Shown here: one piece after another, positions 2,279-22,578 of the stretch | Layout of the letters: each line of letters opens with the position of its first letter | How positions within the stretch are numbered: the first letter of the stretch is position 1 | Source of the DNA: Bacteroidales bacterium | Lineage (GTDB): Bacteria; Bacteroidota; Bacteroidia; Bacteroidales; F082 | Length of the DNA stretch: 39,251 nucleotides | Assembly: GCA_017616735.1 (NCBI GenBank) | Contig: JAFZXP010000050.1 | Coordinates: 1-39,251 of the forward strand | Direction: 5' to 3' | The notes under the pieces: model-generated | Told to the model about the DNA's origin: nothing | Databases searched by the model: none | What the model saw: only the letters and a program-made list of their open reading frames with translations | Position numbers and translations under genes: made by a program

Positions 2279-3571
2279 ATGGGTTATTATTTCACTTCAG
2301 AATCAGTTTCAGAAGGCCATCCTGATAAAGTGGCCGATCAGATTTCAGATGCCGTCCTCGACGAAATGCTGCGCCAGGACCCGGAATCAAAAGTTGCTTG
2401 CGAGACGCTGGTGACCACAGGTCTCACCGTTGTGGCAGGCGAGGTTAAATCAGACGGATATGTTGACATTCAAGGCACTGCGCGCCGTGTCATCGAGCGC
2501 ATAGGCTATACAAAAGCGGAATATCAGTTCGACAGCAAGTCGTGCGGCGTGCTTTCGGCTATTCACGGACAGTCGCAGGACATCAACCGCGGCGTGGAGC
2601 GTAAAAACGAGGAAGACCAAGGCGCTGGCGACCAGGGCATGATGTTTGGCTACGCATGCAAAGAGACACCGGAATATATGCCGCTGACAATAGTTTTGTC
2701 GCACATGCTTTTGCTTGAATTAGCAAAGATTCGTCGCGAGGGCAAACGCATGAAATACCTCCGTCCGGATGCAAAATCGCAGGTCACGGTGGAATACGGT
2801 GCCAACTGGAAGCCTCTGCGCATCGACACCATAGTCATCTCAACACAGCACGACGAGTTTATGGACGACGACGCTGCCATGATTGATAAAATCGAGCACG
2901 ACGTTCGCACGATATTGCTTCCAAGACTGAAAAAGCTTCTGCCTCAGAAGGTTAGAAACCTCTTCAAGTCCGACATGAAGCTTTTCGTCAACCCGACCGG
3001 CAAGTTCGTCATAGGCGGACCTCACGGCGACACTGGTCTCACAGGCCGTAAGATTATCGTCGACACCTACGGCGGTCGCGGCGCACACGGCGGTGGCGCT
3101 TTCTCAGGCAAAGACTCATCAAAGGTGGACCGCTCGGCAGCATACGCAGCACGTCATATCGCGAAAAACATAGTGGCAGCAGGCGTTTGCGACGAGGCTT
3201 TGGTGCAGATAGCATACGCTATCGGCGTGGCACAGCCTGTCGGTTTCTACGTCAACACCTACGGCACGGCACACGTGAAAGATGCTAACGGCCGCAAGAT
3301 GGGCGACGCTGAGATAGCTGAAAAACTCAAGACCTTGTTCGACCTTCGTCCTTACGCCATAGTGAAGCGTTTCGGACTGAAGAACCCAATCTTCGAGCCA
3401 ACGGCATCGTACGGTCACTTCGGTCGCGACCCGTTCACCGCCAAGGTCGAGGTTCTCTACAAAGACAAGGACACCTTCACCGAAAACGGCAAGAACTACA
3501 AAAACGTCGAGTTCTTCGCATGGGAGAAACTCGATATGGTGCCGGAGATTCAAAAAGTCTTTAGTCTTTAG
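2279..3571 (+). CDS. metK: S-adenosylmethionine synthetase
   Basis: Cytosolic enzyme (430 aa) that makes S-adenosylmethionine from ATP and methionine. The N-terminal [19 protein letters not shown] carries the ATP-binding histidine and the metal-binding region. [12 protein letters not shown] is the methionine/ATP-loop signature, and [19 protein letters not shown] is the second signature. Length is slightly above the roughly 385-residue bacterial form, as in Bacteroidales. The start [13 protein letters not shown] is standard. A SAM-II-like leader precedes it. The final codons (VFSL and stop) are supplied by the downstream heptamer tract, and a hairpin formed by the same tract ends the gene. Confidence 0.96.
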
Positions 3572-18500: not shown

Positions 18501-21231
18501 GATCGCTCGAGCCTCTTTTTGCATAGAAACTAATATTGCCACCAAATGCGATTTGTGGAGAAATCAGCCAATCGTTGGCATCTCCTCCAACACTGGATGA
18601 AGTGTATCTTGCACGTACGCAATAATTGCTTTCATGAGCATAGGAACTACCACTTTGAATACTCCACGCATTGCTGTCGTTATCGTTACTAATGGTGGTC
18701 CAGCCTTGCATTTGGCCATCCTCAAAGTCTTCTTCAAGCACGGTGCCAATAACAGGTGTGCCTGTGTAGTCGTAAGTTCCAACTGACAAAACATAGCTTT
18801 CGCTTGTTCCTGTCCAGCTCAGTTTTGCTGTATGACCTGTAACCTCCGAAGCTGCAAGGCCTGTTGGAGCTGGGCATGCCTCGGTTGTGGTGAATGTCGC
18901 TGGAATTGACCATGGGCTGTAACCTGTATATTCGCAATGGCTGCGCACCCAAACGTAATAATCTGTTTCAGGTTTTAATCCGCTTGTCACAGTGAATGGA
19001 TTGGTGTCGGCATCAACAACATCATCCGGATACTCGTAACCTGTGGAAATGGCTGAGGCGTCTTCTGAAAAGTAAAGCTGCCATCCATCTTCGGCGGCAC
19101 TGCCATTTTCGTCCCATTCGAATGTGGCACCATGGCCAGTAGGATTTGAAGCGACCAAGTTGGTTGGTCTCATACAGGCAGGTTTATACTCAACTCTGAC
19201 GTCGTCAATCAATACTTGAGCATATGTTCCTTCATTATATTTGAAGGCTATACGTGAGCCGTCAGGAGCACCGTCGAAGACAAAGTCATCGGTATGTTCA
19301 TACTCACTGATTGATGTAGACATATCGATGGTACCAACATTGACAAATGTGCTGTAATCGTCGATATCAGTGATATAACCAACTTCGAGTGATCCCATGT
19401 CATAGCCGCTATATCCATTGGTCCACCAGAAATTCAACATTAATGCACTGGTGTTTGCAGTTGTGATAGGTAAAATGGCGTAAGCAAGATCTTGTGATCC
19501 ATAAAGACTGACATTGCCTGTGTGTGCATATGTGGGGTTGTTTAATCTGTCAAAGCCATCGAGGTCCCAGCAATAGATAATTTCGCTTGAAGCTTCGAAA
19601 CCCTCGTTATATGGAATTGTAGAGAGGGCGTTGCAGTCGGTTCTCGCTTGAATAGTTTCCACAGTTGAACCGCAGTCGGCTGTGACCTTAAATGTATAGG
19701 CGGTGTTTGCTTTTAGCTCAATTACGGTGCAACCAGTTGCGGTGAGGTTGGTGACGGTGACAGCATTGTCATTGCCATCGGTGATAATATAAGAGGCTGA
19801 GCCGTTGTTTTGGTCGGTCCATGTCAGGCTGACAGTAGTTGTTGTAACATCGCTGACAGCGAGATTTGCTACTGGCATACAGCTTGCCAGTGTTGTAAAT
19901 GTTGAAGCTACCCAATCACTTGTTTCGCCGCCGCCGCAGTTGGATTGGACTTCAAAATCGTATGTGGTTTCCTCGGTCAGACCACTGATATTCAGGCTGT
20001 TTGCGCTTGTTGTTCTGTTGGTCCATGCACCGGCAGGAGTAGGATCATCATAGATGCCGAAGTCATCAATAAGGAGGTAATCTTTGTCCTCATCGGTATG
20101 ACGAAGTGCTATGTAACCAGGAGCGCCATTATAGCTGCTAAGATCAACGGTAAACTCAGTCCATTCAGTGGAATTAGTAGGTGTGTAAACAAGGGTGAAA
20201 TCACCGACTGCGTTTCCTGTTGTGGAAACATAGACAGCATAAGATTCGGAATAACTGGCTCCATCGTCATTAATTGCCCAAAATCTAAGTGTTCCGTCAA
20301 GGGTAACCTGAGGTGTGATAAGCCAGTTGTCAACACTATAGGCAGCTCCGCTATAGCTACGCGACATAGCCATGTATGTACCGCTATGAGCAGGGATAGG
20401 GTTGTTAGTAAAGTTGCCATTAAACTGACGCCAGTCGGTGCCATCTATTCCCTCTCCATTACGAATGATAGTCCATTGTGACAATCCGTCCTCGAAACTG
20501 TCGAAGAAGGTTGGATTTGGAATTTCGGCGGTACGATAACGCACGTTGAAGCCGTTGCTTGGAGCTTCACTTGTCGTCCAGGTAAGGGTGGCACTTTCTG
20601 CCGTGATATTCGTGGCTTCGAGATTCTTTGGCTTCGGGCAGCCAGTAGCTTGAGTCTCGGTAACGGTAATGTCATCGATGTAAAGAGCCCACATGTTTGC
20701 ATCAGAGGTGCAATGAACGACGAGTCTTACGCTTTGCCCAGCAAGTGCTGAATTCGAGTTGGATCCAGTAACCTCTGAAAATGTCTCATTAGTATATGAA
20801 GCAGATGCAATGGCGCTGTAGTGTGTAGCAGTAGCAACAGATTCAGCATTTGTGATATCGCTTGCTTTTACTAAAAACACCTCAAAAGCCTCAGCGTAAG
20901 AAGCTGAGCGTACGCGTTCATACACGCTAACGCCAAGTTCATCCATTTTAGCACTTACGTCAAAAGGGACAGAGACCAAATAGCAGTCCGCATCATAGGA
21001 ACTACTATAGTTATAATACACACTTTTTGAACCGCTGTGTGCATAACTAGAGCTAATAGCCCAGTTGTTGCCGCTTCCGGCTTTGTAAGCAAACCAGTCG
21101 GTTGCAGAATAGCTGGTGGCGATACTCGACATTGCGTCAAAGTTCTCCTCCAGCAGCGCTGTTTGTGCTTTCACTGCCCACGGCGCTAATAGCGTCATAA
21201 GCAGAATCAGAAGTAAAGATTTTTTCTTCAT
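15562..21231 (-). CDS. Giant multidomain T9SS surface adhesin
   Basis: An 1889-aa secreted protein. The signal peptide is MKKKSLLLILLMTLLAPWAVK, then A-Q. A choice-of-anchor J / cleaved-adhesin jelly roll occupies about 27-195, starting at LEENFDAM. Fibronectin type III domains (CPKPKNLEATNITAESATLTW and similar, near 200, 450, 690, 790, 1035 and 1139) follow. Anchor-J-like domains lie at about 240-395, 540-685, 827-980 and 1177-1360. Three of these sit inside a fibronectin domain after the strand FNVRYRTAEI or its equivalent. From about 1410 there is a beta-helix-like region (GEWGTAANWEPTGAP) common in T9SS proteins. The last 75 residues, ending VGNDVKTQKIVVR, are a type A sorting domain. 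No clear promoter stands directly upstream; it may be read from the small gene at 21430. Confidence 0.85.
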   Translation of the reverse strand: MKKKSLLLILLMTLLAPWAVKAQTALLEENFDAMSSIATSYSATDWFAYKAGSGNNWAISSSYAHSGSKSVYYNYSSSYDADCYLVSVPFDVSAKMDELGVSVYERVRSASYAEAFEVFLVKASDITNAESVATATHYSAIASASYTNETFSEVTGSNSNSALAGQSVRLVVHCTSDANMWALYIDDITVTETQATGCPKPKNLEATNITAESATLTWTTSEAPSNGFNVRYRTAEIPNPTFFDSFEDGLSQWTIIRNGEGIDGTDWRQFNGNFTNNPIPAHSGTYMAMSRSYSGAAYSVDNWLITPQVTLDGTLRFWAINDDGASYSESYAVYVSTTGNAVGDFTLVYTPTNSTEWTEFTVDLSSYNGAPGYIALRHTDEDKDYLLIDDFGIYDDPTPAGAWTNRTTSANSLNISGLTEETTYDFEVQSNCGGGETSDWVASTFTTLASCMPVANLAVSDVTTTTVSLTWTDQNNGSASYIITDGNDNAVTVTNLTATGCTVIELKANTAYTFKVTADCGSTVETIQARTDCNALSTIPYNEGFEASSEIIYCWDLDGFDRLNNPTYAHTGNVSLYGSQDLAYAILPITTANTSALMLNFWWTNGYSGYDMGSLEVGYITDIDDYSTFVNVGTIDMSTSISEYEHTDDFVFDGAPDGSRIAFKYNEGTYAQVLIDDVRVEYKPACMRPTNLVASNPTGHGATFEWDENGSAAEDGWQLYFSEDASAISTGYEYPDDVVDADTNPFTVTSGLKPETDYYVWVRSHCEYTGYSPWSIPATFTTTEACPAPTGLAASEVTGHTAKLSWTGTSESYVLSVGTYDYTGTPVIGTVLEEDFEDGQMQGWTTISNDNDSNAWSIQSGSSYAHESNYCVRARYTSSSVGGDANDWLISPQIAFGGNISFYAKRGSSDLDKIQVYVSTTGNNISDFTAITEEITLKTTYEYFEYDLSSYSGNGYVAIVYTAPNDQYYVYVDDITITGPVYPIAWQEYNTTDLYKTVGGLDPETPYFAKVKGYCGTDDGYSQETAVISFTTDIACPAPTGLTASNPKSNSFDLQWTNGGSEDWIVAYKKTTDADFSEINLNESDVTVEGNLITYTLGGLDAETDYIVKVRDNCEASYAGDGVSEWTAEVPYSTIAACSAMNPVVSNVTHHKATVNFEGESATGFTVNYRVAASIDGTNEKFDGTEIPSNWTKWTGLVDNVIAGTTTLGSTTYGWTMTTNTPNIFNSNHITLNIYGSSRYHWLVTPEVNLAANSGLSFDLALTAYANGGVGTSPVSGTCADDRFVVLIYANGKWEILREWNNSGSAYVYNNIATAGENVQIDLSSYSGTVKIAFYGESTVAVTGDDNDMHIDNVAIGVPVPAGTWQTEPTATTTADLDGLTAGTKYDVKVVPNCDPTQESSIVNFSTVSADNKWFITAGEWGTAANWEPTGAPTINQSVTLYANVTIESGCVAEAKSITQGTHTITIEDGGQLKHDNSGVTATVKKHIIGYGAGNTNTKLGYYLISNPLFQTINKHTSASTPNISSTGLRTGNYDLYNWDNSKQGYEWRNYKSTATGSGPFDLSSGLYGYLYANENDVEFLTFTSTLRASNSSVTRYLTNNSSSYTFGAWYLLGNPFVCDAYLVNASTSGTALPYYKMNAEGSGLVAVADGSPIAPMQGVFYEATTSGSVYMVRTAPAVTSTGNGNLNISLAQNVTSRDAVAETDNAIVRFDGGQQLSKFSFRENSTKVYIPQDNNDYAVVTAEAKGVLPVNVKVATTGKYTISFSNDDIEFTYLHLIDRFTGEDIDLLIDESYTFIATPGDNANRFNLVFNSIDSNIDIESEIFAYQNGDEIIVSGEGELQIFDVMGRFVTSMRVNGSERISAEQYSNAVYIFRLVGNDVKTQKIVVR

Positions 21232-21299
21232 GATAATTTAATTTAGTTTATAATTTAGTTATGATTTAAAGATTTGGAAATTCGAGATTAAAAGATTTA
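21177..21299 (-). repeat. Adhesin 5' end and upstream region, copy A of a duplication
   Basis: This stretch, covering the signal-peptide codons and about 68 nt upstream, is nearly the same as 22456-22578. Only scattered substitutions separate them. Confidence 0.85.
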
Positions 21300-21615: not shown

Positions 21616-21645
21616 TTGTATGAGTGAAAAAGATTTGTATTTTTG
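21616..21645 (+). promoter_or_regulatory. Promoter of the twin-loop small RNA
   Basis: TTG at 21616-21618, a 19-nt spacer, then TATTTTTG at 21638-21645. The spacing is that of the gap and rel promoters. No start codon with a sensible frame follows. Confidence 0.65.
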
Positions 21646-21650
21646 CGGCG

Positions 21651-21745
21651 TGAAAATACAGATCGGCTACGGCATAGATTTACTGTATCGTCGCAACTTA
21701 AAGCGGTTAGATCGGCTACGGCATAGATTTACTAACCGTTTTTTT
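21651..21745 (+). ncRNA. Candidate small RNA with two hairpins carrying the same 21-nt loop
   Basis: Hairpin 1: ATACAG (21656-21661) pairs with CTGTAT (21683-21688). Hairpin 2: AAGCGGTTAG (21701-21710) pairs with CTAACCGTTT (21732-21741). Both enclose an identical 21-nt loop beginning ATCGGCTACGGCATAG (21662-21682 and 21711-21731), while the two stems share no sequence. Seven T residues (21739-21745) after hairpin 2 make it an intrinsic terminator. With the promoter just upstream this forms a complete transcription unit of about 95 nt. Its 3' hairpin is antisense to the last codons of the 178-aa gene. Family unknown to me. Confidence 0.6.
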
Positions 21746-22252
21746 ATGCTCAATGCTGTATTGAACCAGTATCCCTGTTGTTTTTCTACCTAATAAAACT
21801 TCAACAGGAAAATTCATATACGGAAGATTTTCATTTCTGATATTATACACCAGTTTGTACAGCTTTTCATAATGATTGTTTTTCTGAAACCCTTGTTTGA
21901 TATCGTCAGTGATATAATCTTCATCTTTGGGTCGGGCGTATTTCAATACATCATAAATGTGAAGAATAGCGTAAGTCGATTGCCAGCTTCTTGCAGCATT
22001 GTTGGAAGCTTTCAAATAGCTTTCGCGGAAAATCAGAAAGACATTTTCATTTAGGAAGTCGTTTTTTATAAAATTATTTCCTTGCAGTTTAGAAAGTATC
22101 GATTTATAAGCTATCTCAATTATCTTTCTTCGGATAGGTCTGGCCTCAACATTCTCGGTTGTCGGAATGCGAAAGATTTGATTTGTATGTTGCAGATTCG
22201 TTTCAACAAATTCAGGTAGTAAATCACTATGTATAATTAAATCTTGTTTCAT
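21716..22252 (-). CDS. Unrecognised 178-aa protein between two candidate RNAs
   Basis: Starts MKQDLIIHSDLLPEFVETNL. It is helix-rich in the middle (ESYLKASNNAARSWQSTYAI, then LHIYDVLKYARPKDE) and ends in a beta-like segment VEVLLGRKTTGILVQYS. No signal peptide or membrane segment is visible. I recall no certain family; the centre resembles stand-alone proteins seen near mobile DNA in Bacteroidales, which is a weak impression. The final codons (KSMP and stop) lie in the loop and stem of the convergent small RNA. A structured leader with an intrinsic terminator stands 24 nt upstream of the ATG. It could be a toxin, a phage-related protein or an RNA-regulated accessory factor. Confidence 0.65.
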   Translation of the reverse strand: MKQDLIIHSDLLPEFVETNLQHTNQIFRIPTTENVEARPIRRKIIEIAYKSILSKLQGNNFIKNDFLNENVFLIFRESYLKASNNAARSWQSTYAILHIYDVLKYARPKDEDYITDDIKQGFQKNNHYEKLYKLVYNIRNENLPYMNFPVEVLLGRKTTGILVQYSIEHKKTVSKSMP

Positions 22253-22275: not shown

Positions 22276-22391
22276 AAAAAACGGGTAATTTCTCACCCGT
22301 ATATCATTTTGGTGTGCCGGGACAGGTCTGTACTGCATCCGGCCTACGCATCAAGTGGTTATGTTTAGTCGCCACAGGATGGTTGCAAAAT
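22276..22391 (-). ncRNA. Structured leader or small RNA ending in a terminator upstream of the 178-aa gene
   Basis: Downstream of a -7 element (22404-22397) the minus strand shows GTGG...CCAC, CATCC...GGATG and GCCGG...CCGGC pairings. It ends with ACGGGT-GAGAAATT-ACCCGT followed by six T (terminator 22276-22300). The RNA would be about 115 nt. It could be a free small RNA or an attenuator controlling the 178-aa gene, whose ATG lies 24 nt beyond the terminator. Confidence 0.5.
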
Positions 22392-22396
22392 CATTG

Positions 22397-22404
22397 CAAA
22401 AATA
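22397..22404 (-). promoter_or_regulatory. -7 element for the structured leader RNA
   Basis: The minus strand reads TATTTTTG. No -33 element at the right distance was seen. Confidence 0.45.
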
Positions 22405-22447
22405 CAAATTATTTTTATATCTACATCATTTTTTCAAAAAACTTACT

Positions 22448-22510
22448 TTATGTCACCCACGGCGCTATCAACGCCATCAGCAGCATTAGAAGTAAAGATT
22501 TTTTCTTTAT
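22448..22510 (-). pseudogene. Remnant of a second adhesin signal peptide
   Basis: In the frame of the adhesin start this reads (ATA)KKKSLLLMLLMALIAPWVT and stop. It is almost identical to the adhesin signal peptide but has ATA in place of ATG and a stop just before the cleavage site. The flanking upstream DNA is duplicated too (22456-22578). It marks a lost adhesin gene or a recombination scar. Confidence 0.75.
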
Positions 22511-22578
22511 GATAATTTAATTTAGTTAGTAATTTAGTTATAATTTATAGATTTGGAAATTCAAGATTTAAAGATTTG
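22456..22578 (-). repeat. Adhesin 5' end and upstream region, copy B
   Basis: Second copy of 21177-21299, beginning CCCACGGCGCTA and ending AAAGATTTG on the plus strand. It lies between the truncated VapC and the structured leader RNA. Confidence 0.85.

Follow-up and report, generated by a model that had tools for sequence, protein, structure and literature searches.

A conserved two-hairpin RNA convergent with an LPD3-related gene in Bacteroidales: a putative polymorphic RNA antitoxin

Introduction

Among described systems, the one closest in design to the locus reported here is AbiF-Cd/RCd22, a type III-like pair of Clostridioides difficile. According to the accessible text of PMC12373285 (this and the other papers cited by accession were available in part), RCd22 is a prophage-borne noncoding RNA, about 132 nt long, whose two motifs of 33 and 35 nt are separated by 19 nt; it neutralises its toxin through direct RNA–protein contact, both in cis and in trans. 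Type III systems (ToxIN, PMC5772629; CptNI and TenpNI, in PMC12373285) pair a repeated structured RNA with an RNase toxin. In ToxIN, as described in the accessible part of PMC5772629, the ToxI repeats are placed 5' in the same operon, ahead of a terminator; they form pseudoknots, and ToxN cleaves them.

In the available sections of PMC5576092 and PMC11699363, the immunity factors described for polymorphic toxins are proteins; for the MuF polymorphic toxins of temperate phages, the proposed immunity factor is a small downstream ORF (PMC5576092). Paralogous small RNAs with a Bacteroidetes-type promoter are described in Bacteroides as FopS and GibS (PMC11697453): the FopS RNAs, of about 65–70 nt, pair through a 5' seed with susC mRNAs and bind RbpB, and the accessible text mentions no partner toxin gene. 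LPD3 (PF18798) is a domain of polyvalent proteins whose precise function was called elusive in 2017, in a paper whose available part mentions no RNA partner (PMC5512222). A literature search, with preprints and many subscription papers outside its range, gave, among the matches listed, no work that deals with an RNA partner of LPD3 or with RNA-based immunity against polymorphic toxins; nor does 'LPD' occur in the main text, as available, of a paper that catalogues structured RNA candidates from human microbiomes (PMC8040213).

Here we analyse 39,251 nucleotides of Bacteroidales DNA (the window), in which a predicted two-hairpin RNA is convergent with an LPD3-related gene. The two-motif RNA is the point of likeness to AbiF-Cd/RCd22; the differences are that the protein there is of the Abi_2/HEPN kind rather than LPD3, that RCd22 lies upstream in the same orientation and is co-transcribed, and that hairpin arrays of mixed type, present here, go unmentioned in what is accessible of PMC12373285. 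With type III systems the locus shares a repeated structured RNA partnered by an RNase toxin, here a putative one; unlike in ToxIN, however, the RNA is convergent with the gene, consists of predicted hairpins and ends in a hairpin that is itself the terminator. Whereas a downstream ORF is proposed for MuF toxins, the candidate immunity factor here is the adjacent RNA on the opposite strand. Paralogy and promoter class are shared with FopS and GibS; the domain of the partner protein is homologous to the LPD3 of polyvalent proteins.

Results and Discussion

A two-hairpin RNA element

The earlier note on this DNA had proposed a small RNA gene made up of a TTG-N19-TATTTTTG promoter, two hairpins and a seven-T terminator. 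All of these parts are in place (Table 1) in a pattern far beyond chance, and the promoter and terminator motifs support the reading as a small RNA gene. The 21-nt loop, with up to three mismatches allowed, occurs twice in the window compared to none in 100 shuffles, and at no other site of the genome assembly (80.5% complete); another contig of the same genome (C53) holds a more diverged copy of the two-hairpin RNA. The loops are letter-for-letter identical over 21 nt, as had been noticed, but the true repeat unit is longer: 25 nt, AG...CT included. Because this unit takes in AG/CT, both hairpins share their two innermost stem pairs, which corrects the description of the stems as having nothing in common. 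The proposal that the 3' hairpin would be both terminator and working module is supported.

Table 1. Features of the RNA–gene locus and its flanking repeats (window positions)
Feature	Position	Strand	Remarks
Promoter motif of the RNA	TTG 21616-21618, N19, TATTTTTG 21638-21645	+	Bacteroidetes-type; motif read directly
Hairpin 1 (type I)	21656..21688	+	Stem ATACAG/CTGTAT 21656-21661/21683-21688; 21-nt loop 21662-21682
Hairpin 2 (type I)	21701..21741	+	Stem AAGCGGTTAG/CTAACCGTTT 21701-21710/21732-21741; loop 21711-21731; doubles as terminator hairpin
25-nt repeated core, copy 1	21660..21684	+	Repeat search, family D2
25-nt repeated core, copy 2	21709..21733	+	Repeat search, family D2
Seven-T run (intrinsic terminator)	21739..21745	+	Read directly
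Match to covariance model R1 (two-hairpin RNA)	21650..21745	+	96.3 bits; own sequence among the 7 model-building ones
Convergent gene, LPD3-related	21716..22252	-	178 aa; stop codon inside hairpin 2
122-nt direct repeat, left of RNA–gene islet	21177..21298	.	89% identical to 22456-22577; covers adhesin gene start
122-nt direct repeat, right of RNA–gene islet	22456..22577	.	

The region modelled by R1 measures 96 nt. A TAnnTTTGC motif precedes the first loop by 23–26 nt in 11 of 13 rows of type I, the hairpin type of the window; none is given for L027 and L040. Searches with the Rfam covariance models gave no gathering-level match for the window RNA or for 20 related loci, and the sole match at a lax threshold was MIR396 (E 2.3), in agreement with the earlier statement that no described family carries this loop.

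Conservation of the RNA and of its pairing

Relatives within the genus show this arrangement too; their stems differ, and the core is almost unchanged. The covariance-model search that had been suggested brought out a conserved RNA: model R1, built from seven sequences, matches in 26 of 99 genus genomes (the seven source sequences included) and, among 173 genomes of the family, in one of 16 genera. A scan with the loop gave a match in 18 of 100 genomes, several three-mismatch sites (for example L003, L004, L009 and L014) being dropped as lacking such hairpins. The 47 hairpins that are distinct by their surroundings comprise 14 loop variants and 13 different six-position stems; a filter for at least three adjacent pairs excluded none of them.

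Loci picked by protein alone, with no pairing demanded and the core letters still loosely fixed, have the core in 28 of 28 cases. The 17 distinct hairpins at these loci all share the two innermost stem pairs; the four outer pairs beside the core are paired in every one of them (two via differing base pairs), and the next three pairs outward are paired in 11, 12 and 13 hairpins. Across seven full-length RNAs, 97.0% of cells are paired compared to 94.0% in shuffles, with 6 two-side changes compared to 2.5 – a modest signal in the right direction. A larger set of 27 hairpins gives 93.8% paired cells and 42 two-side changed cells against 15.3 in shuffles; its search pattern fixed most core letters and demanded at least four pairing positions of seven, and inner constancy and part of the pairing are thus built in. 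Accordingly, the case for pairing rests on the protein-picked loci and the seven full-length RNAs. The refuting outcome named in the earlier note, homologous regions in which stem pairing or loop is lost, did not occur, and the observation survived: a nearly fixed core sits on changing stems, with pairing kept near the core.

Predicted fold

For the two-hairpin RNA the predicted folding energy is -28.1 kcal/mol (z = -3.1), which none of 200 shuffles equals. Folded alone, hairpin 1 is unremarkable (z = -1.8; equalled by 10 of 200 shuffles) and hairpin 2 is strong (z = -3.7; equalled by 1 of 200). The 'loop' is itself predicted to be structured, with an AUC/GAU helix, a GC/GC helix carrying a variable tetraloop, and a 3-nt 3' bulge; it is likely a small structured module, and the tetraloop is the most variable part of the core. 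A structured 'loop' with a varying tetraloop favours recognition by protein over a base-pairing seed. Of the two targets that the earlier note had allowed for the loop, RNA or protein, the prediction thus leans to the latter, and an open pairing loop becomes improbable.

A convergent gene related to LPD3

The RNA element had been recognised in the earlier note; its partner on the opposite strand, a gene overlapping the 3' hairpin (Table 1), had not been foreseen. The encoded protein matches no Pfam (PF18798 included) or PADLOC family, and its NCBIfam rows are at chance level only. Its relatives match LPD3 weakly, 10 of 65 family members doing so at E<=0.01. Profile comparison of the family with clear LPD3 proteins (hhalign) gives 97.1% probability and E 6.9e-11, and the best viral match in Foldseek is named LPD3 (E 2.1e-5). 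By profile and fold we conclude that the family is homologous to LPD3. The predicted fold weakly resembles RNase toxins, among which those of the BECR fold were considered, and the protein is probably a toxin of the RNase type.

Family members occur in 69 of 99 genus genomes. The 20 strongest, near full-length matches all adjoin a type I RNA; the weaker ones examined adjoin RNAs of the same design – promoter motif, at least one hairpin and a T-run at the gene 3' end – with other cores. Between the window loop and the start of its own gene there is no complementarity beyond that of shuffles.

Gene–RNA orientation across loci

To count loci, 152 rows were reduced by their 3' regions to 102 distinct LPD3-type loci. 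Left out were partial or broken genes at 8 of 77 loci (L175, L180, L184, L185, L186, L189, L191, L194), L128 with its early stop, and further loci that were broken, partial, repeated or at contig ends. An antisense TAnnTTTG lies at most 300 nt from the gene 3' end in 99 of the 102; the corresponding counts are 25 for the sense strand of the same flank and 49 for the antisense strand of the 5' flank. The exceptions are L070 (with counterparts L194 and L197) and L196, where a type I RNA is on the other, 5' side of the gene, L196 holding the type I core, and L219, whose 3' region suggests that the promoter falls within the predicted reading frame. The same design recurs in distant hosts, recorded as a Tannerella and a Dysgonamonadaceae MAG. 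Two giant polyvalent proteins whose LPD3 is internal are counter-examples, as neither has such an RNA at its 3' end.

Similar loops on two-hairpin RNAs also occur next to LPD3 genes from other families, at L216 (G075) and L242 (G231).

RNA type follows protein subtype

Thirteen core types, of which the window RNA represents one, can be defined by patterns written after the data were seen; 89 of the 102 loci can be assigned to one of them. In 88 of these 89 loci the nearest protein neighbour correctly predicts which type the last hairpin has. With neighbours limited to 90, 80, 70 and 60% identity, 86, 84, 61 and 35 of 89 are predicted, compared to a mean of 9 and a maximum of 18 when labels are permuted under the 90% limit.

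Relatives carry one to four typed hairpins per RNA. Upstream hairpins of foreign type are borne by 17 of 29 multi-hairpin loci, 25 such hairpins in total, and a single RNA may combine up to four types (VI-V-III-IX in L162 and L163; IV-II-III-IX in L166). Each foreign type seen is also the last, matching hairpin of another protein subtype, for type III hairpins via one counted locus, L231. In relatives, a given gene subtype thus comes with a hairpin type of its own, which makes the RNA look like a matched antidote to the protein.

Cassettes, decay and phage fusions

Comparison of 99 upstream flanks (120 nt plus the promoter motif) gave 139 homologous pairs, with a minimum of 80 nt aligned and 75% identity. 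Different last-hairpin types are carried by 124 of these 139 pairs, a figure that is not a rate because near-identical loci had been removed beforehand, which lowers the number of equal pairs. Eight hairpin types occur within a single group of 15 loci with homologous flanks; cassettes thus differ between species behind a homologous promoter flank.

The gene next to the RNA is not always intact. Of 27 type I RNA loci, 20 have near full-length genes (in one, G043, the gene runs from residue 27 at a contig end) and in seven the gene is broken or missing. Broken genes of other types also keep their RNA (L175, L180, L184, L185, L186, L189, L191). An intact RNA beside a broken gene would fit an antidote and its poison more than a gene and its terminator. 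LPD3 also forms the C-terminal domain of Phage_Mu_F (MuF) proteins, and there, too, convergent hairpins of other types are found.

At L224 (1-1863), a single protein combines a papain-fold toxin domain (Gln_amidase) with a terminal LPD3.

A candidate RNA antitoxin and its alternatives

We consider it probable that these loci constitute a polymorphic type III-like toxin–antitoxin or immunity system whose RNA hairpins act by neutralising proteins of the LPD3 type. The sequences themselves show the conservation of the RNA, the pairing kept near its core, its convergent linkage to the gene, the matching of RNA and protein types, the different cassettes behind one flank, the broken genes beside intact RNAs and the MuF–LPD3 fusions; transcription, toxicity, RNase activity, direct binding and neutralisation are inferred. 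The plus-strand RNA would present two copies of a structured recognition module on different stems. By analogy with type III and type III-like toxin–antitoxin systems, it would be made in excess, its cores binding the LPD3-type protein directly and holding it inactive; the protein would act as poison once the RNA is lost or when a phage brings it in. RNA type and protein subtype would belong together as a cassette behind the homologous promoter flank, and upstream hairpins of foreign type may give protection from further subtypes, among them the ones fused to MuF proteins of phages. A more far-reaching form, which we put forward tentatively and with somewhat more doubt than belief, is an RNA-based immunity to polymorphic toxins: genomes would keep small arrays of hairpins that are interchangeable and each counter a single LPD3 subtype, and the locus would serve as a library of antidotes against resident and MuF-phage toxins.

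Specific matching of RNA and protein would fit any dedicated ribonucleoprotein, including one in which the LPD3-related protein is an RNA-binding regulator or chaperone and the partner RNA acts elsewhere or feeds back on the gene; that several neighbouring genes are housekeeping genes also suits such a role. Cassette differences, foreign hairpins, broken genes beside intact RNAs and MuF fusions are, however, typical of conflict systems, and the predicted fold leans, weakly, to RNase toxins; a regulatory particle is in our judgement unlikely. We give less credence still to type I-like antisense control, by which the RNA would overlap the mRNA 3' end and repress the gene through base pairing. 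Tail-to-tail type I pairs exist in Bacillus, and the window RNA is indeed convergent and overlaps the coding end. Yet in 55 of 89 loci the end of the last hairpin motif falls outside the CDS, though mRNAs may extend past the stop codon, and nothing in the gene is an obvious antisense target for the duplicated cores or for the foreign hairpins. Moreover, G115, G116 and G025 have their type I RNA on the 5' side of the gene, about 210 nt away, divergent and without overlap of the coding region; the longest RNA–gene complementarity there is 8–9 nt, and duplex energies equal those obtained after shuffling the RNA (15 shuffles each).

A fixed core on stems that vary is also reminiscent of integron attC sites, and folded DNA-level recombination sites of this kind could account for cassettes that differ behind one flank. 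The promoter motif and T-run, the fact that hairpin type follows protein, and homologous flanks that include the promoter, ahead of the first hairpin, speak against them, and we regard this explanation as very improbable. Equally improbable, in our view, is the base-pairing form of the earlier proposal, a trans-acting RNA that would pair with target RNAs through an open loop: a core conserved on variable stems would be expected of it, but the prediction gives the loop a structure, the tetraloop is variable, and core types go with protein subtype.

As to classification, the preferred reading of the RNA as a protein-neutralising antidote agrees with type III systems in the repeated structured units, here two identical 25-nt cores with a putative antitoxin role. 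It departs from them in gene order, the RNA not being upstream on the toxin strand before a terminator but marked by an antisense promoter motif at the gene 3' end in the 99 of 102 loci above, and in toxin family, no type III toxin being matched in Pfam, NCBIfam and PADLOC scans and profile homology being to LPD3. On account of gene order and toxin family we class the system as a variant among RNA antitoxins that stands outside type III. If the reading is correct, it extends RNA antitoxins to another protein family and to convergently arranged genes, and most notably to polymorphic arrays of mixed hairpins; an RNA that is extendable hairpin by hairpin would be a simple means of collecting immunities. 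Natural matched and mismatched hairpin–protein pairs make the specificity of RNA–protein recognition directly testable, and the LPD3 domain gains a testable role.

Surroundings of the window locus

Eight neighbouring genes were scanned. Four are housekeeping genes (LepA, GAPDH, RelA/SpoT and adenylosuccinate synthetase); the others encode S-adenosylmethionine synthetase, a large fn3/cleaved-adhesin protein and two proteins without a family. The window copy thus sits in a chromosomal islet between the 122-nt direct repeats.

Three minor observations concern non-coding sequence. On the minus strand, upstream of the LPD3-related gene (22276-22408), a promoter-like TATTTTTG is followed by a terminator-like ACGGGT...ACCCGTTTTTT about 25–30 nt before the start codon; this stretch may be a leader or a further RNA. 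A conserved CCGACAGCAAACGACTACAGTCGACTACAAACGTTTAATCAACGG-like sequence, possibly an operator or exchange site, lies 5' of the LPD3-type genes at L060, L062, L063, L065, L076, L077, L081, L083 and L084. Elsewhere in the window, a SAM-II riboswitch (2117-2175; 67.9 bits) is located just ahead of the S-adenosylmethionine synthetase gene (2279-3571).
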